A stretch of DNA of 64,000 nt from Nymphaea colorata (taxonomy: Eukaryota > Streptophyta > Magnoliopsida > Nymphaeales > Nymphaeaceae). The stretch is taken from positions 23,372,802 through 23,436,801 of the forward strand of contig NC_045145.1 in NCBI RefSeq assembly GCF_008831285.2, given 5' to 3'. The position numbers and the translations under genes were made by a program. The notes under the pieces are model-generated. The model saw only the letters and a list, made by a program, of their open reading frames with translations, was not told the DNA's origin and made no database searches. Shown one piece after another: positions 5,288 through 56,539 of the stretch (its first letter is position 1; each line of letters begins with the position of its first letter).

Positions 5288-8200
5288 GTCTGTGTGTGGC
5301 AAGCTTCAATTCTGCCACTATGTTGTTTTATTGAATGGGTGAAGATGTCTCAGTGGCTTTCTTTGCCACTGTGGGTATTTGATGGCTTTTACAAACCACT
5401 TTTTGCCAGATTTGTAGTTCAACATTCAGACCTTTAGCTGTACAAGCTTAAAAACTGCATATCCTAGATAAATTGAAAGAAACTTTTCTAAATTAAGTGC
5501 TGCTTTTGTAATATGTAAAGAATAGGTGATCAAAGGGTACTGATTCTTTCTGCTATCAATTGAAATTTCAGTGCAACTTATGATAGTATGGCCTTCTGAA
5601 GCTATTGATGCCATCCTTTCTTCTGATTCATATTGTTATCTCTTGTTCCTGTATGGTTGAGCTTCATCTACAACTTCTAGTTCTCTTATGCTGATATCGT
5701 GGCATTCATATATCTGTTTTCTCAGGAGTTTTTGAGAAAATTGGAATAGAACCACAAGTACAAAGAATAGGTAAATACAAAAGCACAGGAGATCTACTTT
5801 CACGCAAGAGTATGTCAAAGGAAAACTGTGAAATGCTGACTACATTGCTTGATAACATATATGGAAATTGGCTGGACACAATAAGCTCTACCAGAGGTGC
5901 TCCTTGAGCTTCTTATTTCTTTGTTCATTGGTGCTAATGTTCCACTGGTTAAAAAGCTAATTGACCCTTTATGTCTCCCGCATTTTTAGGGAAGCAAAGA
6001 GATGAGATAGAGAATTTTCTAAATGAAGGAATTTATGAAGTACAGCGACTGAAAGAAAATGGGTGGATTACAGATATAAGTTACGAAGATGAGGTTTAAA
6101 TTTCTGTCCTGTCTTTGAATCTGTAAGAACATGATGCTGTTGCTAATGAAGCTGATAATATGCAAGTGAATATGCTGAGGATGTGATAAATAATGCATAG
6201 TCATGTCTTCCCTTTTATTCTGGATAGCTTAGATTGAGAGAAAGAAAAAGGTTGATGCATGGCTATGCATCAACCTCATCATTCAAAAATTATAGGAAGT
6301 GGGTATGTGTAGCTGCCCACAGGATACTGTTATTTTATAAATGTCTGTTGTCTTCCAGGCAAATCATTGGTTGATTTTTCTAGGTTCCTGAGAGAACATT
6401 TCCCTGTATGGTTGATTCAACATTTGAATGTGGTCAATCTTGTTCTCCAGCATATTTACTCCCTATTGATTGAGTATTTGAAGTTCTGTTTGGAGTTAAT
6501 GCCATGTGCTTCTGTTTAAAGTGTCTTTGAGCTTGTCCATTGTTATCTAGTAGAAGATAATGCCATGCATTTTTCTCTTAACTTCTGTGAATTGCCGAAG
6601 TGGTTGTCAACTTTGAAATGTGGCGAGCAGAATAATTTTTGAATCAACTTCCTGCCATGGAGCCTCATTGGGAATCTATTTATGAACTCCAAATTTCTGA
6701 ATGTGGTGGCTGCCTTTAATTCTGAAATTTGTCGGTTCAATAACAATTCCTGCTATTTTTTTGATGCTTTAAGATAGCTTGAGTGAAGTTTAGTTATTGG
6801 AAACCCATTTTCTGCACATATGGATTCTAAGATCATAATTGCCTAATTAGCATAGAAACATTGATTGCATGATCTTCCCTAGATATGCATTTGAAATGTT
6901 ACCCAGTTGATAACTTAATTTTCCAATGTTACCAAAAAGCAAAAGCTGAAGGCCAGTCTGTTATGTTAGGTTCTATGCTTCTGAGTTCCAATGTTAATGT
7001 CTGAGGAAATATGTTTCTTAAAGAGAGGGAGGTCCGACATTCATCCATAATGAGTTGGTACAATTATATAGTGTGTTTATGGCTGCCGCCCTTGTTCGTA
7101 TCTTATTCTTAAGGATATGGAACTAGAGGTTGGGCACTAGATTGCATTCTAGTGCCTTCCTACGATATAATGGTCTCTGTTGGACAGGTAGAAAACCCTC
7201 AGCCTGAACAATGTACCACCTCCTTTTCTGCTATCTAGTCTAGTTTCGTTACATGCTGCCACCCTATCTTAAATTTGTATAATTCAAGGGTTGACAAATT
7301 CTGTAGTTATCTACATGATTTTTGGTCAAATAGATTATATGATCATTAGGTGATCAAGACACATTTCAATATGAAGCACAAAGAAAAAATTGAAATCTGT
7401 CCCCTTCTCTTTCTTTTGAAATTCTTGATATTTCTGGCACAAAATATTTATCTTTTAGTTCAGTATCCACTATCAAATTATTGACTTTTCTTTCAACATA
7501 GGCCTTTTTTACAAAAGATTTATTATAGTAGATGATTTGCATCTTTTAATTGTTTTCTTTCTGTACATTGGATAAGTCTCACTTGGTAGGATTTCACTCA
7601 TTTTTGTTATATTCATGTAACAGGTGATGGATTTGTTAAAGGAGAGGTTGGGCCAGAAAGGAAAGAAGCTGCTCACAGTTGACTACAAGTAAAGTTTTTC
7701 AGTTTCATGTCATGACATTGCTCATCTTGTTTGTTCCCTATGTCACGTAGGTGGGGGTGCGGGTGCCAGAGCAGCACATCCTAAAAAATTTGGGTGCAGG
7801 GGTGCGGCGAGGGTATTTTATTATGATTATTACTAATTTGTTATATATATGAATAATATACAATAAAATTATCTATAAGCAACAAAATTATCTATAAGCA
7901 ACAAAATTATCAAATGACAGCATGATATCTATACCAAACACACTATGTAGTGTTATTGTTTATTAATATAATAAAATTTAAAACGTTACAGGAAAAGCAA
8001 GAAGTGAAAACTGTAAAAGTAAAACACGATGAGAATTAAGAAAACAGAATTTCAAAATGAAAACACACTGTAAACAAACAGGAACTCAAACATTATAAAA
8101 AAAGGACAAGGTTCAAACACTAATAGCCTAACAGAAATGATGCATCACAGTTTCAATGACTAATAGTTTAACGAAACAGATCATCGATACATGAGCATCA

Positions 8201-11028
8201 CACATATTCACAACAAAAAGCATGCTGCAAACAAGAAAATGGAGTTGCACTCACAGTATGGTAATTAACATAATCGGTTCAAAATAAAAAACATGTGGCA
8301 AATAAACTCATTGCACAGAAAAACTTAACAGTAAAAAAATAATTATGAATAGCCATCACAAAACAAACCCAGTCGCCGGAAAAAGAAGAAGGGGCTGCCG
8401 CTGAAAAAAAATGTCTGAAAAAGAAGAAGAGGCTGCTGCTGAAAAAGAAACCAGTTCGAACGGCAGTATACGCAGGAGCTAAAGGTCACCCCGTTGCCAG
8501 AAGGAGATCCGTTGCTGGAAAGAGCACAACCTGACGATGAATAGTTGCCGGAAGCTGCTGAAGGTCACCGGAAAGAGAGAAGTGCCCAGGCGGAAGGGAA
8601 AAAATGGGAAAGGGGCTTCAGTCAAGGGTTTTGACCGAAACCCTAAATCCTTTGGCGCCTCATTTTTAACAAGTGATATTTAAAAAAATAAATAAAAAAG
8701 ACAAAAATAGGCCTGACGTGAGTCAGGTGCGTATCCACAAATACCAATTTTGACCAGGTGAGCTGGTTGCACCTGATTCACTTTGACCGCACTCGGGTGC
8801 GCGTCTGAACCGTACTTGAGTCCACATCTGCACCCACACCCGCATCCGCACCCGCATCTGCACCCGGACCCGCATCTGCTCCCGCATCGTGTTGACGTGG
8901 GTGCAGCTTCTAAATCAAAGCACCCGTATGACCTTGTTTGTTCCCCTGTTTCCCTGGCTGATGTTCCTTCAGTGCCATGTTCACTTTGTAGTCTGTACCA
9001 TGCAAAGTTTATCATATTTTCCTTCTCCTATTTATAGTTTATAACTTTGTCGACTATCTGTTTGTATATGATGCTAAAGAAGTCAGAATATGGTCATATT
9101 TGTGGCTTTTCAATGTAACTATAAAAAATTTAGGGTTTTTCTGAAGCAATGAACTTCATGCTTGTTTCACCAACCATGAAGGAAGACAATTAGCAATGTG
9201 AATACACATTAAGTTCGTTATGTTGGGATCTGTTTGCAAATCATGTCATTATAAGCTGTGTTGCTGTAGGAACTTTATTGGTCGTTTTTGCATTCAACCA
9301 ATTTAAGGTTAACAATGTTGTATTTCAGTATAATCAAGTCTAAACTATGTCACATGGGTGCAAGGTGAGGGTGCAAATGCGGCAATTTTTCAAAAAAAAT
9401 TTAGGTGCGGGTGCAGTGAGGATGTATATATATGTGTGTGTATGAATGTGTATAAATAATTTGTCACAGAGTTATTTAACTATTTACTAACGTTATTTAT
9501 CTATATTTACATGTAAACTTTTTGTATCAGAAATAGTTTAGTTATGTACAGTTGTGCACATTTAAAATGGTCAGTTTTGGCCTGGTTCGGCTAAACGAAT
9601 TGTATGTGTTGTGTCAGAGAAGCACCAACACCAGCACCAGCACCAGCACCAGCGTAGACATAGGTCCGACATGGGTGTGGCAGCCATTTAGAAGCACTCA
9701 TGGACACAGAGTCTAAAATTGACCATTGAGTTTGGGACGTGAAAAGCAGGATTTGTTCAAGACGGTGTTTAGTTCACTAGTTTTTCATGTCATCATCATA
9801 AAACCTTTTGTACTATGTCACATAGGTATGGGTACAAACCACTTTCAAAAAACTTGGGTGCGGGGGTACGGCCGTACACACACATGCACATATATATATA
9901 TATATGTCAAAAAATTTCAAACAGAATAACACATTCGCACATTTATATATATAAAAAAATTACAAACTTATATGAAAAACACCTAACAAGAGCTGCAAAG
10001 ACGCACGCAAAAAAGAACACGATGACCATGAGTCACTAAACTTCCCCAAACTGTCAAAATTTTTACAGAATCAGTCACTAAACTTCCCCAAACAGTCACG
10101 ATTTTTTACAGAATAACTTTGGCAAAGACTTTCCCAAAATCGAACACGCTGTAAATAACGCACAAAAGAAAAACGAAATTTCTATTGAGTAAATAACACG
10201 CGCAGAAGAACAAATGATCAAAAACTGATGCATATGAGAACAAATGATGAAAAACTGATGAGGCGCACAACACATGATCAACGATGAAAAAATGATGTGC
10301 GGCGTTTAAAGTATCTCCAAGACAGACGAAAAAATGATGAAAAACTTAACTACGAGATCTAAGAAATGAAGAGGCGCACAACATATGATCAACGATGAGG
10401 AGGAGACAAAGTCATAACCATCGAGAGGGAAGGAACGAAGAGGAGGTAGGGAGGAGGACATGAAATAGAAGAAATTGGTCAAACAGAAGCTAATACCGTC
10501 CACAGTCGCTGCCGTTCGTCCACCGGTCCACCCAAGTCGCCGATCACCGTACGCTGTCGCCGGTCACCACATTTCGTCCACCCAAGTCGCCGGTCACCGT
10601 ATGCCGTCGCTGCCGTTCGTCCACCCAAGTCGCCGATCGCCCCAAATGCAGTATTCGTGAAATGGGTAGAAGGAAGAAGATGTCGAGGGTTTAGGCCTTT
10701 AGGGTTTCATTTGACCAATTTAACGTTAGATTAGTTTTAAAAGTTAAAAACTTAAAATCGTTAATTTCAAAATTGGACATCTTTGGACTCGGTCAAAGTT
10801 GACCGAATCCGAAAATGGACCGATTTGAACCCGGGTACGTTGACCGTACCAGGTACCGCGTTGACCGAATTAGTGACGCACCCATAGCCGTACCGGTACC
10901 GTGCGGGTACTCATACGTATCTGGAATGTCAGACATAGCTTTTGTATATGTCTATGTCACATGGGTGTGGGTGCAAACTACAAATACTGGTGCAAAGGAC
11001 ATATATATATATATATATATATATAGGG

Positions 11029-11062
<34 letters not shown>

Positions 11063-14000
11063 CAACAATAAGATTTCAAACACATAAATTTATTGTTTAA
11101 ACTTTAAATTTATAAAGTCTGAATTATTAAAAAAATTCAAATTTTCCAAAAAATTAATGAAAAATAAGTCAGAGGTGTCCCATGCCCGCACGTGTGTCCA
11201 GCTATGTTGACATGGATATGGTGCCCTTCCAGAGTGTATGTGTGATGTAGGTATATCTGTGGGAACTTCATTCATGTCAATCTCCTCTTGTTTGAAAGCA
11301 TGACAACCTAATTTGGATAACTCCAATACATATTTGGCTCATGCAGCGGAACAAGCATGTTCTTGCCTAAAACAGTGCATTAATTTGGTTGGAGAATTAC
11401 TGTATCCCTTTCTACTTTTTGGGCGTGTTATGTTGAGAAGCATCTCATGTTTGATGCTCCACAGCTTCACATTCTTGCTGCCACCCTCCTAGAAGAACCA
11501 TGGTCCTTTTGCCTAACAGTTTTGCTCTTGCACTTATCTTTTGTTGATTTGAATATTTTTTTTTCTTTTTTCTTATATACAAGTGTTACTTTTCTTAATT
11601 TGAATATCTTTTTATTGAATGATAAAACTTCTTCTGTATGTTAAATTAATTAAATTATATTATCTGGAATGTCAGACAAGTGTTATCCTATTGGTGAAAA
11701 TAATTTTCTGGAGCATTTGTCATTCATTGAACATCTCATTGCAGTGGTGTTCATTCAAAAACATGTTCCATGTAGATTTGTACTATGAATTCTCTTTTTT
11801 TTTTTTCCTTTTGGAAAAGTGATTATTTGGTGGGTGTATTTTAATTTTTAAATGTGTCATTCATGTCTCTATCAGGAGATACTCAAAAGTTAGAAATTGG
11901 ACACTTGGATTGACAGGAGGTAAAGATCAAATTGCAATAATCAGAGCTTCTGGAAGTATAAGTCGGGTTCGTAGTCCTCTCAGCGGTTCTGGATCTGGTA
12001 TTATTGCAGACAAGTTCATTGAGAAGATCCGTAGTGTTAGAGGTTGGTATTCTGAAGTTACAATTCCTTACATTCTTTCCATGCTGGTGGTCATAGGGTT
12101 TATATGTTTCACAAGAAATGTAGAAAGCTTTTATCTGAATAATTGGAAGTCTAAATTTTCTTCTTCAAGAACACAACAGTCATTAAGCATTCTAGATTAA
12201 AATATTAGGTATTCCACTAGCTTATAAACTTCAAATCACTGATGAACGAAAGAAGTGGCAAATGGCAAACTCTGTTGAACACCTAAACATGGTCATGCAG
12301 CTACCGATGGTTGTTAGATGGAGCAAGACTTCATGTATCCAGAGTTGGATGTGAATCCAACTGGCTCACTGACATGATGAACACTCAAGTTGGTTATCTA
12401 TATTACTCTTACATGAACTCTTGAGTTGGATAAGAGTATTTTATTTGAAGTATGGTTGGTTCAATAGTAAAAGTATTTTACTTGGGATATGTACCTTCAA
12501 GTATGGACATTGTTGTATGAGACCTTTTCTATTGTAGCCTTCTCTGCTCCTCAATTCCTTCATTTTTTCATCATTTACTTCCAATTTTTTTAATCCTTTA
12601 TAAATCAATATGAATATAGCTCTCCAAATTTTAAGAAGATGCAGCCCATTTGGTTCAAGCTGCTGGGCAAGACTCATTTTTGCTATGTCACACGGGTGCT
12701 GGTGTGGGTACAGGTACAGACCATTTTCAAAAAACTTGAGGGCGGGGGTACAGCCCTACACACACGCACATATATATATCAAAAATTACGAACAAAATAA
12801 CATATTCCGTTTTACCTTCAATTTTATAAATATGTTATTCTGTTTGTAATTTTTTTGATATATATATATATATATATATATATATCAAAAAAATTACAAA
12901 CAGAATAACATATTTATAAAATTGAAGGTAAAACGGAAGATTAGTAATCTAGTTTTACTTTCTATACTTCACATCCAGTTTAGCTTAGCTCGCAAATTTA
13001 CTGTCAGCTCCTTTACTACGACTCAAAGAAAGGAAGTCTTCTATTCTGACACAGTGATGAATTAGTTCCCTACATGGTCTTAACAAAAGAAAGAAGATGA
13101 AGAAAAACGTAAACTGGGATTGAACTGAGTTCGATCCTCCAACAAGTCCTAGGTAAAACGGAAGAGATTAGAGGACAAGAACAAACTCAACACAGTGAAC
13201 CGTCTGCAGCTGCTCGCTTACACCATTTTCCCTTATTAACACAACAACAACCACAAAATATACAGTCTTATGCATTAATAGAAGAACGGAAGGACGAAGC
13301 TCGATCAAGCAGTCAAGAATGATTACAAAGGCACTTGTGAGAAAATCGAAGAACAAAAAACGAAGAGAGGAGCTCGATCTTCACAAAACCCTAAAAACCA
13401 AGCAAAACCAAAAGAAAGAGCTCGCTGAAGAGGAAGAAGCAGAACCATCGAGTTGAATCGCTGCTCTCGCTCGCCACTCGCCATTCGCCGCTGGCTGTTT
13501 GCCTCTCGTCGTCGGTCTCTATCAGTGAAGAAGAAGACAAAGTGAAGAACCGTCATCAACGAAAGGATTTTGATGGGTTTCGATGTTTTTAACGTGAAAA
13601 ATGTAAAAAAACGTTAAAATGTAAAACATGTTAAAAACTGAACGCAAACAATTTTGGACTTTGTCAAGTTTGACTGAGTCTGAAAATGGACGGACTTGAC
13701 CTCGGGTACGTTGACCGTACCTGGTGTGGTCAACGGAGTACCTGAGTCGCACCCGATGCCACACCCGTACCCGTATCAGTGTCGTACCGGTTCCTTGCGG
13801 GCAGTACCCGTGTTACATAGCATTTTTGATAAACACATGCCATATGATTGGATTCTTTTTTGTTGTTTGAATTGATGAAGAAAATGAAAAAGAGCTGAAA
13901 TAAGGTTATCATGTTTCTCCAATGCTGACTTCATTCCTTCACTACCATCCCATGAGGAAAGTGTCTTATTGATGAAACTTTACCTGAATGCCTCTTGGTT

Positions 14001-17000
14001 TAAAACTTTAAATAACTGAAGAAAAGCATCTGGCCACTTTTCTTGATATAGTAACTTGTATGTGATGAACTTATTGTTGATGGAAGGATCATGTGATCAC
14101 TAATTATTCAGAAGAACTACTTTGAGTATCATCAATATAGTATATTCATGTTGACCTCTAGTTTCTCAATGCCAGCTTAGGGTAATTGGCCTGCTTACAA
14201 GTATGTTTTCTGTGGCTTTGATTGCATATTTTGCCAATTTATATGTATTTTTTGTTAAATCATTGAAGATTAATTTCATCTTCCTTCTTTTTTCCCATTT
14301 AGAATCCAAAAAATACAAAGCTGTTGTCATTCGGATTGATAGTCCTGGTGGTGATGCTCTTGCTTCTGATTTGTAAGTGCCTTGTAAAATCTTTTATGAT
14401 ACTTGTCATCATTCCTAAGTGATTTAAAAATTCCATTCCCATGTCAATATGTATTCCTTGCTTGGGCATCACATTAAAGTGCTTTAGACTTGCGTTTTAT
14501 TTGAAAAAAACGCGATAAATGCGCTAAATATAAGTCAGCTGTATAAAACACCAATAAAACACATTTTTTCAAAAAGACGTCAGAAAATAAAAAAGGCAAA
14601 AAATACACGCTTTTTTGTGTTTTTTACTGAATGTTTGATTTATTTTTAACTGTTCAGCCAAACCGTGAGTTTCTATCTTTTAAATGTATTAAATAAGAGA
14701 GAGAGAGATAGGTGATTAACCAGAAAATTAAGCATAATAGAGGAGAGAGAGTGCTGAAAGGTACACATAGTAATGAAGATTAATTATGTAATAAAGAGGA
14801 GAGAGAGATGGTTTACAGATAATTTGATGCAATAAAGAAGAGAGGGAGAGAGAGCCCAGCTTCTCCTATGAAACCCCTAACCCATAGCACTAAGTTACTA
14901 ACTCCTTCATAAACTCAGCCTTCATATCATGCGGCTGAGTAAATTGGGTCTAGCATGGAGACCAACCAAATTTATTATTTCATAAGTCTTACATATGGCT
15001 ATTATTTGCTTTTAATGTACTACGTTTCACCACATCCTGTCATGTTTATGATTTTATCTAATCATTTTTTTAAAGTCTTATTATTAGTTTATTTATTTAT
15101 TTTACTTTTACCTAATTTTTAGGATTTTTTAATTTATTAAAAAGTTTCCCGAGATTTTGCCGAGATATATAATTTTGCCATATTATATCTGAGAATTAAC
15201 TCGCCGTATAATACCCGTAAGATATATGTGACAATGCTTTAGAGTATATGTCTTCATTGTGGTCACCCAACCTAGGCACATCTGACACCGACTGTGAGGA
15301 ATTTGGCCACTGCCTAGGATGCATTGATGTAATTCAATTAATTAATTACCACAAATCTGTTAATTATTAATTTGAGGAACATGAGAGCATTATTCTTGTA
15401 ATACTATCTAGCATGCATGAAAGTTACGTAGATTTTCTAGTTTAGTTATTTACATAATGGATTACTAAATTGATTGAACTTCTTTTATGCTAGTGAATGT
15501 GATTTTTGGAAAATAAACTTCCTTCATGAGTGGCAGAATCTAAGTCACACAGTTGCATTATGGGTATATAGTGGTAGACAGAATTGAAGCAAAGTAGGTT
15601 ATAAGTTCATACATAATCCATCACAATTAAAGACAGAAAATTTGTTCATGGTCCATAAAAAGATCATCAGGATACTAGCCACTGCACACTTGGAGATGAA
15701 AAGATGCTAAAAGATGAACAGAGAAGAGTCTGAAGAATCAATGTTTCAAAGTTGTGACAAACTTGTGCAGTATATATAATGGAACATTAGAATGTAGTAT
15801 CTCTCATAGAAATCCGCTCATCACTGTATGACTTGATGAATAATCACGTTTAAATGTCTGGAATAATAATTTTTTTTTGTATTTCCATGTGTTGTGCCGT
15901 CTTCCAACTAAGGTCATGATGACCTGAAAGACTCCTTAGAGAAAGACACTGTTAGCGCACATTGTTTTTGTCAATTAATTAATTACCACACAATCTGTTA
16001 ATTATTAATTTGAGGAACATGAGAGCATTATTCTTGTAATACTATCTAGCATGCATGAAAGTTACGTAGATTTTCTAGTTTCGTTATTTACATAATGGAT
16101 TACTAAATTGATTGAACTTCTTTTATGCTAGTGAATGTGATTTTTGAAAAATAAACTTCCTTCATGAGTGGCAGAATCTAAGTCACACAGTTGCATTATG
16201 GGTATATAGTGGTATACAGAATTGAAGCAAAGTAGGTTATATGTTCATACATAATCCATCACAATTAAAGACAGAAAATTTGTTCATGGTCCATAAAAAG
16301 ATCATCAGGATACTAGCCACTGCACACTTGGAGATGAAAAGATGCTAAAAGATGAACAGAGAAGAGTCTGAAGAATCAATGTTTCAAAGTTGTGATTGAA
16401 GCTTACATGATACATGTAATTGTAATTCAAACAGGCGGTCTATCTTTTCACAAACTGAGCAGTTAACAGAAAAAATGGTTATGCAATACAGGGAGTTAAA
16501 TAGAAAATAGCACAAAATCTAGAAACAAAGGCTTAATGGAAAAATAGACAGTACAGAACAATAAGAAGCCTGCATTGTCCGAAAAGCAAACAAAAAATAA
16601 ACAGAAAATGATCTGTACAAAATATTTAAAAAAAACATACAACACTGTAACTTTCTCTTTAAAAATTTAGTGACTTACTCAAAATTTGGCTTTTCCCATG
16701 AAAGCTAAAACCTTGTTAACAACAATACTTTAAAAAGGACAGAAGAGAGGGCTTTGGAGAAATCTGCAAAGCTAACCTTACCTCAAAAACAGAGTTTTCT
16801 GCTGTTAAGGAGAAAACCATTTGTGTTTTTGGGGAGAAGTGAAAAGAATAAAGGAAAAAAAAAAAAACCTGGTTGCCATCATCTGTCGCTGGAGTTGGCT
16901 ATGAATATCGAAGGCTGTGTTGGTGCCCAGTAGCATGGGAAATTGCAATGGAAGGAAAAAGCATTGGAGATTTTAGGGTTACCAAAGGGGGTGAAACATT

Positions 17001-20000
17001 TAAAAGTTATTAGTTTAAACAATTAGATCCGTCTGGAGCTGTCCTGGACCTGATCTGGACATAGTGACATACCACCTTGGTTAGAAGTACCTGTGTCTGA
17101 AAACAGGCCTACTGGAATGGACGTGGGACCCATATCCATGTAGCCATGCAACTTAAGGCAAAATGTAGAGTGTAGATTAGGTGTAAAAGTTGAGAGTAAG
17201 TTTCTTTGGAACATATTAAGTAATTAAGCATAGAACGGCTTCTGCCAGTTTTATCTAAAATGAGAAGCATACTATGGATCCGTGCTTGTGAAGTAGCTGA
17301 GAAGTTTTTTTCTTTGGCCTTAGAATGTGGAGGGAGATTAGACTCTTAGCTGAGTCTGTACCTGTTATTGCCTCCATGTCCGATGTGGCTGCAAGTGGAG
17401 GGTACTATATGGCAATGGCAGCAGGGGTAATTGTTGCTGAAAATCTCACGTTAACAGGCTCAATTGGAGTTGTTACAGGTGAAGCTTGTCCTTCTTCCAA
17501 ATTTCAAATAAAAACAAATTGCATTTTTTGAAAATATTTTCTGATTAGTGGTTGAAGTTATTATTCATGTCTTGGTTTGTACGTAGTCAAGCTTCTTGAT
17601 TTATATTCCACGGAAGATATTTATTTAAGATTTTTGAAAGTGTGGCAGCTGGAAGCTGTAGTCTATATGTATCATTCTGGTGTCTTTATCATACATGACT
17701 TGAACATGCATTTTTAAGTCATGGTTTTGTAGATGTGAATGTGACATAATGTCGATGTGTAATAGTTGAACAAATCTTCATGGGTAAAAGAAGTGTATTC
17801 TCCTAGTTGAACCTGCTTGCAGGTGGGGTGAAATTAATGAGTAAAAATAATAAAAGTGTAATGTAACATAATAGTAAAACCACAATTCTTTGTCACATCA
17901 TCATTATTATAGTAGCCTACTTTCATGCTCTTTTTATCCCGGAAATATGTCTGTGTTGGAGCTGTTCTGGCAACATGATTTGATGTTTCATATACCCAAG
18001 GTTGGAAACTCTAGTCCCTTACGTTAGAACCGACTTTGTGAACTGATTATGAGTAAAATTTTTAGGTTGAAAACAAAAAAAGGTGTTCATTTAGAGGATA
18101 ACAATGGTGAATAAAACTGATCTAACTGGTGATGGTGATGGCACCTACAAGGCGGCATTTAAGGATAACATGGGCACTGAGTGCAATCTTGTAGGCAAGT
18201 TGGGAAGTAGTATAAATGAGAAAATTTTATGTTTGATAACTTCTTGAGAAAAAGAGAGAGTACAGAAAAAAGAATGCACTACGAAAAAAATTAGATAGGG
18301 AGAAGAACAAGAGAAATGTAAGACATTTGAAAAAAAAAAATTGCGAGTGGGATTTAGGAAAACAAAGTATATAATGGAGAGCGATGAAGAAACAAAGGAT
18401 GGATATATGAAGATGCTTGAAGCAATAAAAATCTTTTGATAGAATAAACCGAACCTAACTATTACAGATCTCCAAGATTGGCAGCTTTTGTAACATGGGA
18501 TCCCAAGCAGAACTTGTATTGCTACTGTATATTTTCAAGTCTAGTAACTGCTACAGCTACTGGAATTATCTACACAGGCAGCTGAATTCCTTGACTATTG
18601 AAATAGTTGGAGGCATAGGCATCTCTCTTCAAGTCAAGCTGTAACTTCCCAAAACTCAAAATGTATTAAGGCTATTTGATGACTTTGACCTAAGATCCAA
18701 GGGAATCTTAGCTATAGGTTGTTGCATCTAGATACCTGGAACAGATTGAATCTCTTTACTAATTGGTCTCTGTATCAATGGAGTACATAATTGCACCTTC
18801 AATTACAGAGAATGGCACGGATTGCCTAGTTCCATTCTTTTTTTTATATTATTTCCTATCCTATCCTGTCCTCTTTCAAAATCGCCTCATGACAAATCCT
18901 GTTTCCCTTACATATTTTTGCTCACCTATCTTAGTGTAAGTCATCTATCAAGCCCTACCCAGAAAGAGGAGAAAAATCAACACTGCCTTAAGCTAGCGGA
19001 CCACAGAAGTTTCTCAACTAAAGCTTGTTTCATGTTTACTGTGTTATAGTAATGTCTAGTGGTGGAAACTTCACTAGACATCCTCACCAATGGAGTTTGT
19101 GGTTTTGCTTATAAGCAGGCATGTACTGATCTCATGTTTTCTTCCTTCTTGCAGGAAAATTGAATCTGGGCAACTTATATGAAAGGATTGGATTCAACAA
19201 AGAAGTTATATCGAGAGGAAGATTTGCTGAGCTGGATGCAGAACAAAGACCTTTCAGGTAATACTTTCTTCATTTGTTGTTTCATCTTTTCATTTGGTAG
19301 GAATGTTACTAAACATTATGCTGTCTTAAATTGGCACTATTATTGTATCTAACTTTATTGTGAATGAAGAATAAGGGTTGGATATGGATGTGAACATGGG
19401 TGCATAGCATTTTCAAAAAGCATTGGGTGTGGCTATATTATGTATATGTATGTGTGCACACACACACACACACATATATATATATAAACCAAAATGCCAA
19501 AGTTGACCAAAAAAATACCAAATATCATTTTGCTGTGTCCAAGCTATGTCCCTGCACCTGTACCCCTCTTAGCTGTGTGACACGGGTGGAGCACCCTTCT
19601 TGGTGAGCCATGTGACATAAGTTGTAGTGTCTATGGATTCATAGTCCTAGAAGTTGGGTAAACGTTAGCATTTTAGGTTGTTGCCTTCAAGTGAAAAATT
19701 GAAGAGCTATGTCACATAGGTACAGGTACGGGTGCTGGTGCTGGTACTAGTGCGGGTATGGGTATTGACCATTTTCAAAAAACTTGGGTGCGGGGGTACG
19801 GCCCTATATATATATAAACAATAAGAAATACTTAAAAAATATGTATCAAAATAAAGAATATACATCAACATAAACAAATAAATAACATAGAAATATATAT
19901 CAACGGCTCTTGCAGCAGTGTGTTTAAGAAACCTATGAAAAACTTTAAACATATGGACAACCAAGCAGCCCCTTAGTCAAATATGAACATCAATCGAATT

Positions 20001-21857
20001 TTCACATCCAAAGAATAGAATAAAAGTTAAGGTGAAAAAAATTAAATCAACGTAAAATTAAGCAGTTTGGATCTATAGGTACCCAAGTGTCAAAGTACCC
20101 ATTTTGGGTACGGGTACGGCGACACGGGTACGTGGACCTTACTGAAGTACCCATGTGACTTAGCTTAAGAGTGAAGCTGCTAGTTAAAGAATTTAGTGCT
20201 TTGGAGTTAATAGTAATTACTTGTCCACTTTGGTTGTTAAATATGTTTCTGTTCCAAAGCATGCTGGTCTACTATCTTATATCCAAATTCCTGAATGAAT
20301 AATGATATTCACATGATGCACCCTAATGTCGTCTATATACCTGATGAGTTGAGATTGATGTAGCTCAAGGAAGATAAGCAATCCCCAACTTCTTGTCTGT
20401 CCTTTTTTTTCTTATTCATGATTATTTGTTTGTTTTTCAGGCCAGATGAAGCTGAGCTCTTTGCAAAATCTGCACAGAGAGCGTATGAGTTATTTAGAGA
20501 TAAAGCAGCTTTCTCTCGATCAATGAGTGTATGTTGACATTCTTGTTTTATCTTGAAACTAATGGATGTGTCCAATCCATGTTGACATCAAATAGCATTT
20601 CCAATCTCTAGGTAGATAAAATGGAAGTGGTTGCACAAGGCAGAGTTTGGACTGGTGGTGATGCTGCCTCTCGAGGTTTAGTTGATGCTGTTGGTGGGCT
20701 TTCACGAGCTGTTGCCATTGCAAAAATGAAAGCCAATATACCACCTCGCAGACCGGTACCCTTCCTGTTTCCATTTGTTTTATTTGCAGATGTCATATAT
20801 AGACTGCTTAAGGCTTATGGGAAAATAAAGCAACCATTAGGAGATTAATACATAATATGTTAATGCTTTTTGAAAACCTAAATTATCAGGATTTCAGTGC
20901 CGTATTTTCTTGTGCAATTAACTTAAGTTGCCAGGTTGTGTCTGCTTGCTTTCTTGGGTAATCTTGAGATTGTCTTGGTTGCTGCACCTAGACAACTACC
21001 TTCTTTCTTGAAGAGTTGTGTAAGTTTATATCTGGATACCTGCAGTGTAGTAGAATTATAGAACGAAGGTGATCATAAATACTAGAATCGCACAGGAGAC
21101 TGAACCACCATATGTTCATTGATAGATGGTAAAAACCCCTAATTGTGCAGTTACAAATGCTCTTCTCTGTCATGTTTTTGTCTCTTTTCAGGTTGTCTGC
21201 AACCTGAAGTAGACTGGTCAAATACTGGGGGCATGAATAGTTTGGCATCTTATATAAAAAATGTCTGTGGGTTCATGTGATTCAGTAATGGTTCTCGTGA
21301 TGAGATTATCGGCTGTATCGGACCATCTAAAGAGATGGGAAGGTGCCGTAGTCTCGTTCCAAGAAACAGGTTTCTAATGTACCACTTCACTCTCTCTATA
21401 TATGTTGAGTCAATTTTGTTAGTTTCTGATTCTGGCCTTTCCAATCTTGTCTTCTAACGGTTTCATCTGAATCCATAAGTTCCTTTGTTTCTCTTTTCAG
21501 TCTGTGTAGACAAAGTCAAATATATTTTTGTAATCATTTTTATAATTCAGTAGAAGTATCTTTTTCCCCTTTTTTCTAGCTGAAGTGAATTACAATTATG
21601 TGGTGCATCTTTGTGTTTAAATTTAGGTTAAACTAGTGGAGCTAACAAAGAGCTCGCCTTCTTTGCCTGAGGTCCTTGGTGGTATTGGAGGTGCCCTTGC
21701 TGGAATTGACAGATCTGCAAAAGAGTTGTTGCAGGAGTTGGCTTCATATGAAGGGGTTCAAGCTCGAATGGATGGGATCATAATTGAGGGATTAGAAGGT
21801 GTTCCTTATGGGAACTCCATCTTTTCACTGATAAAGGATTATTTTACCTCTTTCTAG
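2130..21857 (+). CDS. SPPA: Signal peptide peptidase A, chloroplastic (protease IV, peptidase family S49)
   Basis: Plant SppA is a light-inducible thylakoid membrane serine protease with a Ser-Lys dyad. I assembled 13 exons: 2130-2525, 3036-3219, 4213-4350, 5726-5896, 5990-6093, 7624-7688, 11876-12042, 14303-14372, 17324-17478, 19155-19257, 20441-20528, 20612-20755 and 21627-21857. All introns are GT..AG and all phases join, giving 671 residues, close to the roughly 680 of plant SppA. Residues 1 to about 50 are Ser/Arg/Leu-rich and look like a chloroplast transit peptide. Two S49 halves follow. The first holds the catalytic Lys in RIGKYKSTGD (Lys258). The second holds PGGDAL and the nucleophile in SDVAASGGYY (Ser456). 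Both catalytic residues are present and no exon is broken. The start was chosen as the first ATG opening a transit peptide in frame; an in-frame ATG at 2085 would add 15 residues. The oddity is the length: introns hold many transposon fragments. Confidence 0.97.
3590..3618. repeat. (TA)n microsatellite in SPPA intron 2
   Basis: A run of alternating TA. The rest of intron 2 (3220-4212) is A+T-rich, with no recognisable element. Confidence 0.9.
4540..4860 (-). mobile_element. Ty1-copia retrotransposon remnant, antisense in SPPA intron 3
   Basis: On the minus strand, 4784-4848 reads SKDQVADVFTKPLP followed shortly by a stop. ADVFTKPL is the conserved C-terminal tail of Ty1-copia RNase H/polyprotein. 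Downstream on the same strand comes a purine tract (TTGGGGGGAGTA at about 4720-4733), as expected of a polypurine tract, then what is probably LTR sequence. Only the last part of the polyprotein and part of the 3' end survive. I cannot place the outer boundary exactly. The insertion is antisense to SPPA and inside an intron, so it does not touch the coding sequence. Confidence 0.75.
5255..5285. repeat. (CT)n microsatellite in SPPA intron 3
   Basis: A pure CT run inside intron 3. Confidence 0.95.
7739..8932. mobile_element. hAT-like non-autonomous element, copy 1 (SPPA intron 6)
   Basis: The left end reads TATGTCACGTAGGTG and then GT-rich GGGTGCGGGTGC words. The right end has a mirror array of CACCCGCATC-type units and finishes CACCCGTATGAC, resembling the family's CACCCGTGTGACATAG with the last bases missing. 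The direct repeat CTTGTTTGTTCCC (13 bp) flanks it at 7726-7738 and 8933-8945, longer than the 8 bp seen at sister copies. No transposase reading frame is present; open frames across the GC-rich right arm are Cys/Gly or His/Pro low complexity. Confidence 0.7.
9345..9709. mobile_element. hAT-like non-autonomous element, copy 2 (SPPA intron 6)
   Basis: It begins CTATGTCACATGGGTG and ends CACTCATGGACACAG, with family words such as TTTTTCAAAAAAAATT near the left end and a small CACCAG tandem array near 9628-9655. A perfect 8-bp target-site duplication AGTCTAAA flanks it (9337-9344 and 9710-9717). At 365 bp it is an internally deleted relative of the 1.1-kb copies. It is non-coding. Confidence 0.85.
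9813..10938. mobile_element. hAT-like non-autonomous element, copy 3 (SPPA intron 6)
   Basis: It begins CTATGTCACATAGGTATGGG and ends in CAGACATAG, with a perfect 8-bp target-site duplication CTTTTGTA (9805-9812 and 10939-10946). The left arm carries CAAAAAACTTGGGTGCGG, shared with the copies at 12683 and 19707. The right arm carries the TTGACCGTACC motif shared with the copy at 12683. A GC-rich tandem block (CCACCCAAGTCGCCG units, about 10500-10640) sits inside. No transposase is encoded. Confidence 0.88.
10952..11250. mobile_element. hAT-like non-autonomous element, copy 4 (SPPA intron 6)
   Basis: It begins CTATGTCACATGGGTGTGGG and ends GTGTGATGTAG, with a 7-of-8 target-site duplication (GTATATGT at 10944-10951, GTATATCT at 11251-11258). 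It starts 14 bp after the previous copy ends, and its left duplication overlaps that copy's right duplication by three bases. It contains a (TA)n-(GA)n microsatellite at about 11001-11059 and no coding sequence. Confidence 0.75.
12683..13820. mobile_element. hAT-like non-autonomous element, copy 5 (SPPA intron 7)
   Basis: This is the best-preserved copy, 1138 bp. It begins CTATGTCACACGGGTGCTGG and ends TACCCGTGTTACATAG, so the ends are inverted repeats. The flanks are a perfect 8-bp duplication CATTTTTG (12675-12682 and 13821-13828). An 8-bp duplication points to the hAT superfamily, but no transposase exists to confirm it. The right arm repeats TTGACCGTACC and GTCAAGTTTGAC-like words found in copy 3. 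A 134-bp palindrome sits inside at 12805-12938. Confidence 0.9.
12805..12938. repeat. Perfect 134-bp palindrome (67-bp arms)
   Basis: The left arm starts TTCCGTTTTACCTTC and the right arm ends GAAGGTAAAACGGAA. Reading inward, the arms match base for base and meet in a TA run, with the axis between 12871 and 12872. There is no spacer. Transcribed as part of the SPPA intron, it would fold into a long hairpin. Confidence 0.92.
14490..15240. repeat. Degenerate A+T-rich repeat in SPPA intron 8
   Basis: Runs such as ACGCGATAAATGCG, several GAGAGAG tracts (14697, 14797 and 14840 areas) and a CCCGAGATTTTGCCGAGAT stretch near 15149-15167 mark old non-coding repeat DNA. The CCCGAGATTTTT word recurs near 24323, which suggests a dispersed family. 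I cannot name it. Confidence 0.4.
15334..15757. repeat. Direct duplication in SPPA intron 8, copy A
   Basis: About 424 bp from TCAATTAATTAATTACC to CAAAGTTGTGA is repeated in the same orientation at 15971-16395. I count only about five or six differences between the copies, including CCACAAATC versus CCACACAATC and GTAGACAG versus GTATACAG, so they are roughly 98-99% identical. The ends are not TG..CA, which argues against a pair of LTRs. Confidence 0.93.
15971..16395. repeat. Direct duplication in SPPA intron 8, copy B
   Basis: Second copy of the 424-bp unit, 213 bp after copy A ends. Sequence beyond TTGTGA differs between copies (CAAACTT after A, TTGAAGC after B), so the duplicated unit ends there. 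The simplest reading is a recent local segmental duplication in the intron. Confidence 0.93.
19383..19620. mobile_element. Degenerate hAT-like element, copy 6 (SPPA intron 10)
   Basis: The left side retains TGTGAACATGGGTGCATAG and TTTTCAAAAAGCATTGGG, similar to the family's left arm. The right side ends GAGCCATGTGACATAA, close to the family's inverted terminus. I found no convincing target-site duplication and the left border is approximate. A CA/TA microsatellite lies at 19457-19486. Confidence 0.45.
19707..20163. mobile_element. hAT-like non-autonomous element, copy 7 (SPPA intron 10)
   Basis: It begins CTATGTCACATAGGTACAGG and ends ACCCATGTGACTTAG. The left arm carries CAAAAAACTTGGGTGCGG, exactly shared with copy 3. 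The 8-bp flanks TTGAAGAG and CTTAAGAG agree at 6 of 8 positions. It is 457 bp long and non-coding. Confidence 0.7.
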
Positions 21858-26883: not shown

Positions 26884-27471
26884 TCAGTGTAGCAGATCAA
26901 CGGACGCAGTAACAGGGTGCTGATTGGCCATCTCTGCTCGGAGGTAGGCTGCGTTGCAGGGCACCTCTTCATGATCGGGGTGAACATCAGAAGGATCTAA
27001 ATGCAGATCACTGAGCTTCTGTTGAAGATCGGAAGCCTTTTTTCTGAGGCAGTGGTTCTCCCTCATGATCTGTTCATGTTGATCAGATAAAGAATTAAGT
27101 CTCTCAATGAGTTCGCGGTTCTCGGACCGGAGGTGCACCACCTGTGACCAGAGCTCATCAAGGAGCCTCTGTTTCCGCATGCGGGACCGGCGCGCAGACT
27201 CTCTGTTCGAGAGCATCCGCCTCTGCTTCCTGTCGTTGATCATGTTCTGCTGCTCGTCGGCCTCGTCTGAAGCTGAACTGCTCCAAGAACAGGCCTGCGT
27301 GGCGAAGTCCTGGATTGGGGAGTGAACTTGGAAGCTTGAAGACAAGTAAGGCATGGAGAAGCTTCCAGGGCTGAATTGGCCTGAGGAAATGGTCTTTGTA
27401 GCAGCAATATCAGCCTGGAGTCCGCTGAAGAAGGCGGCCGGTGAATAAGCAATTGTTGCAACTTCATCCAT
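26884..27471 (-). CDS. BZIP43: Basic leucine-zipper transcription factor, bZIP43-like (group S)
   Basis: A DNA-binding regulator expected in the nucleus, predicted to recognise ACGT-core elements as a dimer. The 195-residue product has a Ser/Phe-rich N terminus and a basic region at about 81-101 containing the invariant N-x7-R (Asn89, Arg97; NRESARRSR). A long zipper follows with hydrophobic residues every seventh position: L107, L114, L121, L128, I135, L142, L149 and L156. The signature KQRLLDELWSQV after the basic region is typical of Arabidopsis bZIP42/43-like proteins. There are no introns, as usual for group S. The frame stays open upstream to 27720, but a TATA box at 27624-27631 places transcription start near 27600, so the ATG at 27469-27471 (MDEVATIAYSP) is the first in the leader. 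I saw no sucrose-control uORF of the S1 subgroup. The exact orthologue is not certain. Confidence 0.92.
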   Translation of the reverse strand: MDEVATIAYSPAAFFSGLQADIAATKTISSGQFSPGSFSMPYLSSSFQVHSPIQDFATQACSWSSSASDEADEQQNMINDRKQRRMLSNRESARRSRMRKQRLLDELWSQVVHLRSENRELIERLNSLSDQHEQIMRENHCLRKKASDLQQKLSDLHLDPSDVHPDHEEVPCNAAYLRAEMANQHPVTASVDLLH

Positions 27472-27623
27472 ATCAGGTAGGGTTGTAGCCTTCAGGCGAG
27501 GTCGCAGAGAGGAGAGAAATTGTGGGTTGAGGTGTGGGAGGTAGTGGAAGGCCTTGAGTTTGCAGAAGGATGCAGTTGTTTCCTTGAGAGAAAAAGAGGT
27601 GGAAAGAAGAAGTGAGGATGGAT

Positions 27624-27631
27624 GTTTTATA
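27624..27631 (-). promoter_or_regulatory. TATA box of the bZIP gene
   Basis: On the minus strand CTGCTATAAAACATCC contains TATAAAAC, about 150 bp upstream of the chosen start codon. A CT-rich leader follows, a common arrangement in plant promoters. Confidence 0.6.
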
Positions 27632-27739
27632 GCAGGAGGGGAAAGGCTAAGTGGGCCTCTTGCTGAAGAGAAAGAGAGAGAGAGATGCTGTGTTTGTTGA
27701 AAGAGCAGACAGCAACTCATGCATCCAGTGAAAGCTACC

Positions 27740-30700
27740 TGAAAAGATTAGTTCATAAATATGCATAATAGTTTCTATATTTTTTATATACCGGCTTGTT
27801 TCATTTGCCACCGGCAAGCACTCCCTAATTTCACAGTTTATATAAAACTGCCATTATGACAAAGTGCTATTTTTTAAAAAGGTACTTTGTACTAATGGCA
27901 GTCTCTGTGAAATTACTGGATTGCACTCCAGTGGGGCTGTGCGGCCTGTGCCATGACGTGCACAAGGGAATTTATGAGTTTTTTAATTGCCTGGGGAAAT
28001 TGACGTTTTTGTCCTCAATCTTCATTTTAGATGCAGATATCAACAGTGGCATATAAAAAATATATATAAAAGGAGGAAACTCATGGAAGATAGCTCTTTG
28101 GACAACATCTTTGCGTACATGCATCTCTTACTTACCAGACAAACCGTGGCCGACATTTGTCTTACGTCATTGTTCTCCGTTTACAAAATTAGCCATGTCT
28201 ATGTAGCCTTCATACCCAAAAGAATTTAGGCATCTATATAAAAACCATGTCTTTCCAGTGTATACATGAGATTTATAAAGGTTGAAGAACTACCAATCTG
28301 AAAATCATAAATCTTATATTATGTATACCAAAAACTTGTAATTTCTACGTTTTTGGGCATGAAGATTATAGATAAACGTGTACACACACACACATATATA
28401 TATACCATATTTTCTTCTGTAAAGGTATTATTGATAATTCAGGATATCCTTTCCTGTCTTCCACACGTTCGTCAATAGCTCGAAAAGAAGAAGAAAGATA
28501 GGTCACAGAAAGTTTCTGCACCATGCCAGTTGGACAGAACACATAATAATATGAAAATGGACACCAAGTAGCAGAAGGGCAGAAAACGATGATGCTCATT
28601 CTGCTAAGCGCTATGGCTGTCTGTATAAGCCAAAGGCGAAAACTTTTCTCACTTGGGAGTGCAAATTCGCCCATTTTATGAAATTGAAAAAAAGATGTGA
28701 ACCTTCTTCTATAATTAGTCTTTGTCAGCAGTAAAGTTGTGCTTTAGGCCTTTTAGAAACTTCAGTGAAACCAATAATTGAGCAAGCCAGCTTAGCCAAG
28801 CCAAAGCTAAGCTCAACTCAGTGTGTGAGTTGCGTAACCTTTGAGCTTTTTGCTTCTAACATTTGTGGTGTTTCTTCTCTAGGCTTTCTTAGTTTTGTTA
28901 TTCAACTTTCCATGAGCAGCACGATAAAGGTGTATTTTGCAAACAAGATATGCATGCAAAGTGGAAAAATTGCGTAGTCGAAAGAAATTTTCTATCCGAT
29001 GTTTTTGGTGTATTCTTACCTAACTCTTCTTGGTTTAAGAATTTCCTTTTTCTTAACGCCCCCAAGAACTCCAGACAACATAGAATAGTTGGTCCGGCCG
29101 GTGGCATGGATAAGATGCGATGCCTATTCAATTTTGCAAGTGTTGTGCTCTTGTGACTATCTCTTTACTAGGTACCGATGCAACCTTGGACCCTGAAAAC
29201 AAGGAAACGTCGACGTGTACATTTCCCAGCATTAGGTTGTAATCTTCTCAATCTTCTCATTCACACAAAAGGCGAGCCCTGAAAAGACTCAAACTTGGTC
29301 TAGGTTCTTCAACTTGACTCCCTTCATAATCCTCTCCTAAAACATGCTCACCACCCTTGACATGCTGAGCCGAAGCCAAGCTTGGTTCCGGGTTTAAAAA
29401 CTTATTGATAGTGGGGGTATCTACAGCATTAGATCCTCCTCCTTTAGCCATTATATTTTATGCCTTCTACCCTTTCTCATGCAATTATGAGAAGCCTGGG
29501 GCTTCCAACAGGTCCCAACTCTGAAAATGAGGTTACCATATTAAAATCATGAACCGTCTTATTAATGACATATATGAAATTTATAAACCTAACATGGAGG
29601 GGCACTTTAAGTTTTCATTTCTCATAACACAAGAAGCTAGACTCTAGATCCCTGTTGGTAGTACTCCTGCCTCTAGGGCCTATGTGAACTAATAACAACT
29701 GTACTATAATTTTTATGTTTTAGGAAGCCGAAAACAAGTATGAAACGGCACTAATTGGAACAATTTAGCAAGTCAAATATTAACTCTTGTTAAGTGCTAA
29801 TAAAGTGATAAAACTTTTAAAGAAAGGCAGATACTCCTAAGAGGCCTTCTCTATACTTCTCCATGGTAATGAGTTCAAGACTGTTTTGAGACATAGGTGG
29901 TGAGAAGTACACCTGTCAACTAGAGTATCATGCATCCATTGTTTACAATATAGAAGAGTACTAGTATCCATGAGAATCAAACTAATAACTGAAGTTTTAC
30001 TGACCTGCCAGTTTGACCAGCTGTGCTACCAGGGCCAGAGGCAGGGGGTGGGGGGGGGGAGGGGTGTATTTTTTGTATTCGGCTTTAGTTTGAGCCTACC
30101 TGAATAAGTTCGTTGAATCGTTTGGCCCACCCTAAAAAAAAATCTTCGCTCCACCCCTATGTGCTATGCTCCTCGGAGCTTGAAAAAATAAGAACAAGGA
30201 AATGATATTGGAAAATCAAGTAACACATCAACTAAGAATCTCTGGCCCATGTTTTTGGCTTCATACCTTCCTGGTTATTCAGAATAAGTAGTTCCAACTG
30301 CTACTCTCTACAGTACCTCATGTCATCGATAGATGGTAAGAAGGGAGATTGAGGGTTTTGAAGTATAATCCATGTATTTTAGCTTTCTTGTCATATATAT
30401 TTGCCTCTTCAAGCATGGAAGTGGGGGCTCACCCAATATTCATCTGTCATAAGCTAGCTCTAAGTAAACCCATCTTAATTATTTAGTAGTTAAGCTCTTA
30501 AAGGGTGCTCACCATTACATAGAGAAAGAGCTATACACTCCAGGTTGATGCAACAGAATTTTAATAATTATTTTGTAGTACTTAATTTAAATTTCATACT
30601 CAAATCCGTATAATTAACCAAAAACCTTCAACTGCAGGTTATCGAATAAACGTGAGTATTTCAGGCTGATAACAGCTCAAATGAAAGGAGAACTCCTGTC

Positions 30701-45812: not shown

Positions 45813-48800
45813 TCATTTTTTCCTGAGGTCGATGCCAGCTTCTTTAGCCACAGCATCTAAGCCTTTCTTCTCGATGGTCTTCAATGCTTTCGTGGACAAC
45901 CTCAATTTCAAGTACCTCTTCCCAGCTTCCCACCACACTTTCTTGTACTGCAAATTTACAAACTGCAATTTCTTTGTCTTGTGATTTGAGAAGGAGACTT
46001 TATTGGCACGGTTTGCCTTTTTGCCTGTAAATGGGCATACACGACCTGAAAGAAAAGAACTAGCAGGTTAGTGACTTTACAGATTGTTTCGGATGCAGCA
46101 AACGGCTTAATGACGCATACATACATCCGTGTTTCTTCTATGCAGAAATTATCACACCTGTGCTTATACCCCAACTGATGCAGATAAAAAACACGTAACT
46201 TGAAACCGTTCTATCATTTACTCAAAAAACTGATTTCAATTGCCTCAGAATATGAAGAATCAAGAGAGACAAGGTTATGAAATTTCCATTTTACATCTTT
46301 AAACTTAATCCAGATGTAAATTTTAAAAACCTGAAAGTTCATAACAAGAATTAGATGTTTATCGACAAAAATATTCAAATCAAATTAAGAAGATAGAAAT
46401 CCCAGCAGATCAACAACATTAGTTCCATGTTCTATAAATAAATACGATAATGCTAAACCCCAAGTCTGCTGGAACAACCTTACCATGCCAGTTAAGAAGG
46501 AAAATACAGTAAATAAAGTACACTATGATTCATCCTTAATCAGTCATTCCACAAGAGCATGATGTGAAATTTCAAATCACAAAAATCCAACCTCATAGAT
46601 CAGTCATGAATAATGTTTCCTCTCTTACTAAAAGTGCAACCATACAATAAGATCCACAAATGCAGTCTCAGAGCAGACGAAGGGTCCACAAGGCAGATCT
46701 CAACGAAGCTCCAAAAATGTTCCTTTTTCACACTATCAGCAGACAGGATCTGAGACGTGGAAACAGCATGTAAGGAACTTCCAACTATCACAAATAATTA
46801 CATATACGGTTTCAATGTGCTCAGGATTTTAAGATGGCTAATGTGCTGAGAAAAAGCTTTACTCCACTTGCTTCAATATAGCAAGAAAAGAACCTTTTAC
46901 TAGGAAGACATAACAAGAAGCCGATATTTGGATTTCCTTTACTAGGTAAGATTCCATAACCACTCACAGATTTTCAGATGATAAACTGCCCTTCAGGTTA
47001 GTAGCAATCCAACAACTTTAGGATGCGGCTCATTTTGAAATCACTTTAGAGATTGTCTACAATGTTAATTGATGGGAAGATGTGCAAGTTTATCCAAAGA
47101 CACCCGATCTTGACATCTTTATATATTCCCTTGGTCCCATTGATTATCATAAATATTGCCTTTTTTCAAAATATAAAACACAACATAATGGAAATAAAGA
47201 AACAGAACAACACAAAAATCAAGATATTTTAAAAATTGCCAAAATGAAAACCTCATGTTTTTCCATTTTATAAGGAAAAAATTGTTTAAACATACTTTAT
47301 TTTTTTTATGCTTTTTTAATATTTGAATAATTATTTTGAATTCTGGTTAATGTTTTTACAAGAAAATCAGTAGAAAACCCATTTTTTATTAATACTATTT
47401 TTTATTTTTTGAATTCCTGAAATTTTCCCAAAAAAAATTAACTTCATCTTAAGTCTTGATAAAAGCCCAAGTCAACAACAGTATTTGTGACAATGATCCC
47501 AATATGATGCATTGCAAAATCAGCACAAGAAATGTGTGTGTGTGTCATCTTAGGGTTTCCTCGTAAAGGGTTGGTGAGTTAGCAAGGTCTAACGATGGTA
47601 TCAGAGCTGGAAACCAGCAGGCCATTGCAGACGACCATTTATGGGCCTCTTCAACTAGCAACGAGATTCAAAAAGACTTCATATTTCTGCAGCTGGGATC
47701 CCAGCTGTATGGCATCCCCAGCCCTGAGTCATGGACCCAAAACCGCCCAAAGAGTATGACAAGTACATTCGTAACATTGCAAGCTTCAGTTTATGGCTTC
47801 GGTGGAAACTATTCCTCTTCCTGGGTAGGGAGAAATACCAGAAATCATGCATCCCTGAGGGAGTTGCCTTCTGGCCAAGCTGGCCCAAGGAGCAGAACCT
47901 CAACGGTGGAGTTGGAAGAAGAAATTGAGAGATTGCATCAACGCTATTGGTGGTTAAGCATGAAACCAGGGAGTGAAGGGAGCCGACTGCAGTTTCCTGG
48001 ACAAAGTTGGGCACCTTCTAAGCACATGCCCACGCTGGAGACCAGAGAGCAAATAATTGACTGAATATTGAGGCAATTAGAAATTTAGAAGAACATGAGA
48101 AGAATTGGCAGAACGAAGTATGCAGCAAGAACCTTGACCAACAGTACAGCAGGTGTGGAGGAGTTGAGGAAGATGATGCGCAGAATTCAATAGAGAAGGC
48201 AAACCACAGAGTTGCTGACCATGGATTTGCTACCACAAGGCAAGACGAGGTAGGTTCTAGCAAGACGAAATGGAAACAAAAGGAGCAGGCATCAGATCAT
48301 CCCTTCATTCCTGTTAGCAGATGCGAACATGGCGACATCGAAGGGTGGGGCAGAAGGTTAATAAGGCAGCCTATGAAACCCCGTCGAGGCGAGTCATAGC
48401 AGCAACAAGAGAGTATGAGGGAAACATCTTTGGCAATGGTGGAGCCTTGCCACCAACTGAAAATCTGAGCCAATGAGAAGGAGCCCTCCATCGCCACCGT
48501 AAAGACAACCGTCGCCCTCTAGACAAATCCCCCACCGGTCATTTTTATCCAGAAACATCCGACTACAAAGGCCAAGGATCAGAGCGCATTCAATTTCTGG
48601 GAAGCCCCAACATGCTTGCATCTCCAACTTATCAGAGGTCATCTGTCCACCTATCCTTTACCTCCTTGGCCAGCCTGAGGCGGAACTCTAGTCATTCTAC
48701 CAGCCGAGGGAAGGCTGCTACTTCGGCTCTGGACTACGCCTCCAACAAGCTCCAACAGGGACAAAGCCTAAGGGAGGCCATAATTGACAGTGGATGTGCT

Positions 48801-56425: not shown

Positions 56426-56539
56426 CGCGTACAGACTGAACCAAGAGCGAGAGAGAAGGGGGGAGGAAGAAGGGAGAGGGAACGAAGCCAATGGAAGAAA
56501 GAAGCGAGCCAGTTTATCTAAGGAAAAAAGAGCAGACAT

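Follow-up and report, generated by a model that had tools for sequence, protein, structure and literature searches.

The stretch analysed here, a 64-kb window, contains a plus-strand gene that, judged from its sequence, is SPPA-like. One exon lies within an open frame matching Peptidase_S49, PDB chains of SppA/protease 4 match the gene with E=1.2e-6 to 4.4e-6, and a second exon frame that was tried gave no family match. The introns of this gene contain seven related non-coding insertions with CTATGTCACAYRGGTR ends, and all seven segments with common ends that the first-pass annotation had placed there were re-found. Copies 1-4 make up 71% of the intron at 7689-11875. The features are as follows.

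7689-11875, plus strand: SPPA intron with copies 1-4; 4187 bp, GT-AG, reading frame kept across it
7738-8936, plus strand: copy 1, a non-autonomous insertion of hAT type, 1199 bp; perfect duplication TTTGTTCC at 7730-7737 and 8937-8944
9345-9709, plus strand: copy 2, 365 bp; perfect duplication AGTCTAAA at 9337-9344 and 9710-9717
9813-10938, plus strand: copy 3, 1126 bp; perfect duplication CTTTTGTA at 9805-9812 and 10939-10946; internal junction near 9959-9967
10952-11250, plus strand: copy 4, 299 bp; imperfect duplication GTATATGT/GTATATCT, 7/8
12043-14302, plus strand: the next SPPA intron, with copy 5; 3' boundary read by eye
12683-13820, plus strand: copy 5, 1138 bp; perfect duplication CATTTTTG at 12675-12682 and 13821-13828
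17301-17531, plus strand: SPPA exon within an open frame; Peptidase_S49, E=5.3e-14
19258-20440, plus strand: a later SPPA intron, with copies 6 and 7; 1183 bp
about 19382-19620, plus strand: copy 6, about 239 bp, decayed and weakly recognisable (left end 6.7 bits, right end 8.8 bits)
19707-20163, plus strand: copy 7, 457 bp; duplication TTGAAGAG/CTTAAGAG, 6/8, read by eye from the flanks

Ends, target-site duplications and orientation

Each of the seven segments starts with CTATGTCACAYRGGTR or a decayed form of it and finishes with an inverted copy, likewise intact or decayed. As in hAT elements, the terminal inverted repeat is short, measuring about 16 bp and resembling CTATGTCACAYRGGTR at either end, and several of the right ends have decayed. 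Copy 1 scored 35.6 bits at its left end with the left profile and 20.8 bits at its right end with the right profile, and the ends of copy 2 scored 55.0 and 36.0 bits, respectively. The right terminus of copy 1 is the mutated CAAGGTCATACGGGTG, which ends at 8936 rather than at 8932 as first annotated; the coordinates of the segments otherwise mostly stood. Perfect 8-bp target-site duplications, as expected for hAT elements, flank four of the seven copies, where the first-pass annotation had counted three, and one further copy has a 7-of-8 match. At copies 2, 3 and 5 the bases adjoining the duplication differ on both sides, which fixes its length at exactly 8 bp. The repeat around copy 1 runs beyond 8 bp, and the boundary of this copy was therefore set by its terminus. 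The left target of copy 4 overlaps the right duplication of copy 3, and inspection of the flanks of copy 6 (19382-19620) found no target-site duplication.

Within copy 5, positions 12802-12941 form a near-perfect palindrome of 140 bp (70-nt arms, 99%, without a spacer) centred on an AT run. Inverted matches of this kind are present in relatives elsewhere in the genome, and the palindrome is a possible hairpin source of small RNAs.

No further copies were found in the 64-kb window with end profiles built from the window itself (best match elsewhere E=1.5) or with profiles from other genome loci (none at E up to 1), in agreement with the first reading, which had noticed none outside the seven segments. 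The same reading had reported no transposase, and none was detected in the window at E 0.01, the best match in a search with transposase frames from contig C2 (described below) having E=0.43. A loose rule (CTATGTCACAYRGGTR with at most 2 mismatches) gave 11 matches in the window, nine of them within the copies. The other two, at 15540 and 16178, were not counted as copies; each falls in one unit of a local direct repeat. This repeat (15340-15762 and 15978-16397, about 415 bp) lies in another SPPA intron, its units are 99% identical over 300 bp with the remainder compared by eye, and transposon ends were not recognised in it.

Orientation was scored with independent profiles. The left ends of all seven copies scored higher against the left than against the right profile, weakly so for copy 6 (6.7 vs 4.8 bits). 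Four of the seven right ends favoured the right profile, that of copy 5 slightly favoured the left one (5.2 vs 4.6 bits), and those of copies 3 and 4 matched neither. All seven copies appear to be oriented as the SPPA gene (two-sided p=0.016 for 7/7).

Genome-wide relatives and a partner element

The genome searched comprised 407.8 Mb in 783 contigs. The loose end pattern gave 9,916 near-matches genome-wide against 702 for the reversed pattern, and the family is therefore genome-wide. A strict end pattern occurred 679 times (control 1) and a right-type end pattern 242 times (control 2), and chance similarity of the ends was rejected on these three comparisons. Twenty regions (L009-L028) were chosen for holding exact ends, and among them elements of 318-385 bp were found with perfect (four elements) or 7-of-8 (five elements) duplications. 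The elements took two main forms: one resembles the window copies, and the other, about 350 bp long, has right ends similar to CTATGTCACACGGACACGG. A duplication test on the sampled ends found a partner for 8 of the 34 rows listed, some loci being listed twice, and profile searches gave plausible partners for several more. The small share of partnered ends indicates that many copies are old, truncated or longer than the stretch examined. Two candidate long elements, C1:12847693-12853770 and C1:41724665-41728090, were rejected as the ends of separate short elements. A right-type end is also carried by a 2.1-kb stretch at C7:5.28-5.30 Mb (L061 and L062), which is duplicated about 9 kb apart with 99.8% identity.

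Copies 1, 3, 5 and 7 were searched individually against the genome, and the best-scoring candidates were scored. The best scored relatives of copy 5 were 81-82% identical over about 0.8-0.9 kb (contigs C5 and C7), those of copy 3 84% (C1 and C6), and that of copy 1 75% (C5). Copies 3 and 5 of the window can be aligned to each other in two stretches, one of about 112 bp (79% identity) and one of about 73 bp (84%). For copy 7, the best 40 of 1,257 candidates were scored and all 40 matched near full length, one being copy 7 itself and the other 39, at 91-95%, lying outside the window. Copy 7 is thus a member of a homogeneous, high-copy subfamily of 450 bp and has the features of a MITE, for which this copy was tested: it is short, non-coding, present in many copies and uniform in length and sequence. 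Copies 1, 3 and 5 are too long and variable for that label.

The first-pass annotation had proposed a search for a full-length relative with the same ends and a transposase, and such an element of 3,357 bp lies at C2:4472500-4475856. Its ends are CTATGTCACATAGGTA and CTCTGTCACACGAGTA, and it is flanked by a perfect 8-bp duplication, CTCTATAT. Separate frames of the element match DUF659 (E=2.2e-20) and the hAT dimerisation domain Dimer_Tnp_hAT (E=8.9e-8), and a second DUF659 piece is below the cut-off (E=9.2e-6). The same-ended element with a hAT dimerisation domain therefore exists, in broken form, its transposase being split over three open frames on the opposite strand (stretch L065). The outer parts of copy 3 match C2:4472500-4472654, C2:4475001-4475148 and C2:4475476-4475796, and copy 3 lacks the 2.3 kb of the C2 middle that contain the transposase frames. 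At the junction in copy 3, TTACAA is common to both flanks, a short microhomology that suggests an internal deletion. A stretch of copy 3 (bases ~294-773) is without a counterpart in the C2 element, and simple deletion from this very element therefore does not account for copy 3.

With the first open frame of the C2 transposase as query, 134 genome matches were obtained from the best 131 of 1,102 candidates. Of the seven distinct loci that best match the long right part of copy 3, six have a transposase match no more than about 0.5 kb away, on the opposite strand; the seventh (C6:20274508) has none among the matches listed. Four of the relatives of copy 5 likewise lie within about 0.7 kb of an opposite-strand transposase match. 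These nearby opposite-strand matches place the counterpart of the right parts of copies 3 and 5 upstream of the transposase gene. Comparison by eye showed no transposase, among the matches listed, near the three longest relatives of copy 1.

At least 11 transposase frames of 670 aa are free of stops (49-50% identical), and seven of these have the same score, which suggests recent amplification. One stop-free, 50%-identical frame lies at C8:7391953-7392774, with CTATGTCACACGGATACGGC, an end of the CTATGTCACACGG type, about 0.9 kb upstream. The locus C1:1673668-1677219 has both ends and a transposase match inside, but it was rejected as a clean full element, having no matching duplication (GTTAAACC/GCCACAGG). 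No transposase was detected in L009-L028 or L059-L064 by tblastn with other hAT proteins of the genome, whereas the C2 transposase frames gave matches in L007-L009, L021, L022 and L025. The tblastn result was negative for L009, L021, L022 and L025 because the other hAT queries are too distant. Three of these loci (L021, L022 and L025, at C1:3.90-3.98 Mb) share their flanks and represent a single segmental duplication in three copies; each carries the same type of left end and a degenerate transposase.

Classification and proposed movement

Elements of the hAT superfamily have 8-bp target duplications, short terminal inverted repeats (under about 30 bp) and a transposase with a C-terminal dimerisation domain, and their terminal motif 5'-YARNG is typical but not defining. 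The CTATG termini of the SPPA family fit this motif at positions 1, 3 and 5 and have T instead of A at position 2. The same-ended C2 element with a hAT transposase, together with the block missing from copy 3, identifies the SPPA copies as non-autonomous hAT elements with unusual termini, and we regard as real a genome-wide hAT family with atypical ends. The initial description of the segments as one internally variable, non-autonomous and hAT-like family with unusual ends held. Very probably, the seven segments were inserted independently of one another and are all non-autonomous members of a single high-copy hAT family.

An origin from another superfamily of DNA transposons with 8-bp duplications, either P-like or a MULE with short duplications, is extremely unlikely. 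The CTATG terminus departs from the usual hAT motif, as such an origin would allow, but the same-ended C2 element combines hAT dimerisation and DUF659 matches with a perfect 8-bp duplication, and on these two domain matches a P-like origin was rejected. MULEs mostly have a 9-bp duplication and encode a MULE transposase; they were rejected on the same domains of the C2 transposase and on the duplications of copies 2, 3 and 5, which are exactly 8 bp.

For the hAT family, a mode of movement can be proposed. Larger elements elsewhere in the genome, with like ends, would encode the hAT transposase (DUF659 core and C-terminal hAT dimerisation domain). This transposase would bind the 16-bp ends (CTATGTCACA ends) and the adjoining GGGTRC-type repeats, excise the elements and insert them via an 8-bp staggered cut. 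The larger copies 3 and 5 have both ends and sequence from upstream of the transposase gene but not its coding part, for which internal deletion is the simplest cause, and the short copies resemble MITE-like shortened forms. Ds arose from Ac by internal deletion. We infer that a transposase of the C2 type moved the SPPA copies, that the repeats serve in binding and that deletion removed the coding part.

With the hAT elements Ac/Ds and Tol2, the SPPA family has in common the 8-bp duplications, the short inverted repeats, the dimerisation domain and the copies formed by internal deletion. The ends of Ac/Ds and Tol2 are CAGGG/TAGGG-like, whereas those of the SPPA family begin with CTATG, and its transposase core matches DUF659. 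Another hAT group of the same genome (L046 and L047, with L048 and L030-L031 similar) has different termini (TAGGCCTGGGCA ends with GGGCC arrays), but it too combines a hAT dimerisation domain with G+C-rich short repeats inside the ends. Among 30 loci of other hAT elements, no CTATGTCACAYGGGTG-type end was found at up to 3 mismatches and four were found at 4, in flanks of 1.5 kb that may miss the borders.

Solanaceae hAT-like MITEs have the ends CTATGTTGCTCGGACTC and 8-bp duplications. They share with the SPPA family the first six bases CTATGT, CGG-containing ends and the duplication length, and differ from it in the inner sequence. The tobacco small RNA nta-miR390c resembles the end of such a Solanaceae hAT-type MITE more than it does a miR390. 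In the passage that gives its sequence as AGCTATGTTGCTCGGACTCTC, this small RNA carries no transposon label (PMC3237444). According to another paper, hAT elements have short terminal inverted repeats and 8-bp duplications in common (PMC4818426). Plant hAT MITE families are described in Brassica nigra (BniHAT; PMC7385995) and across 207 plant genomes (PMC12550479), and the main text of the latter mentions neither Nymphaea nor CTATG. Like the short SPPA copies, these are short non-coding hAT-derived elements, a likeness of description and not of sequence. A literature search with the terminal strings found no transposon paper.

These results give an unrecognised-looking repeat a candidate partner transposase and a known superfamily, and with them a start for annotating maybe several thousand copies. 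The combination of CTATG termini with a DUF659-hAT transposase also indicates that a terminal motif alone can misclassify hAT elements.

Crowding in the SPPA introns

The first-pass annotation had proposed a local insertion bias or a tolerance of the SPPA introns. The density sample for this comparison consisted of the first 16.73 Mb of C1 (4% of the genome), in which exact ends were listed: 100 in total, or 95 after merging obvious end pairs. In SPPA, 5 exact ends fall within 10.4 kb, whereas no span of this length in the sample has more than 3, and under the loose rule the window has 11 matches (including the two not counted as copies) where 1.56 are expected. The local density is therefore high, but the family is not special to SPPA, as it has thousands of end matches genome-wide. 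General clustering in the sample is slight, with neighbours less than 5 kb apart found five times against 2.6 expected.

Local amplification, in which the other copies would descend from a single SPPA insertion through short-range jumps or tandem duplication, is very unlikely. The habit of hAT elements of jumping to linked sites and the 99% direct duplication within SPPA would fit it. However, the nearest scored relatives of copies 1, 3, 5 and 7 lie outside the window, which speaks against a local origin, copies 3 and 5 have about 112 and 73 bp in common within the window (79% and 84%), and the target duplications differ between copies. It was rejected on the out-of-window relatives and the differing duplications.

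The introns could instead be a true insertion hotspot, the transposase being drawn to the locus or to one orientation by, for example, open chromatin or a local target feature. We consider this improbable. SPPA exceeds the sample in exact ends (5 vs at most 3 per 10.4 kb), only 0.001 clusters like that in SPPA are expected genome-wide under uniform placement, the left ends put all seven copies in a single orientation (two-sided p=0.016), and just 13 bp separate copies 3 and 4. Against this, the window was picked for its clustering and the sample covers 4% of the genome with exact ends only; about one such cluster is expected if the copies are confined to one sixth of the genome; and three sample stretches hold at least 5 exact matches per 64 kb, with end pairs unmerged. 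Moreover, the orientation is weak for copy 6, the right end of copy 5 scores slightly better with the other profile (5.2 vs 4.6 bits), and intron tolerance explains the crowding equally well. The fuller proposition, that a DUF659-hAT family, non-canonical in its CTATG ends and with related transposase copies still free of stops, has a true and orientation-biased hotspot in the SPPA introns, is a shade less probable again. If the hotspot reading were true, the insertion-site choice of the DUF659-hAT branch would be open to direct study.

Because the window was selected for its apparent crowding, we prefer intron tolerance and chance to targeting, and read the crowding as tolerance plus chance more than targeting. 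SPPA is denser than the 16.7-Mb sample, but nothing in this comparison shows targeting, and the locus offers a modest, testable example of tolerance by introns or of preferential insertion.

In other parts of the window, a 55-nt direct repeat (47533-47587 and 50232-50286) is 93% identical between units 2.7 kb apart, and long open frames at 26884-27747 and 54836-56551, both on the minus strand, have bZIP and RING-finger matches.
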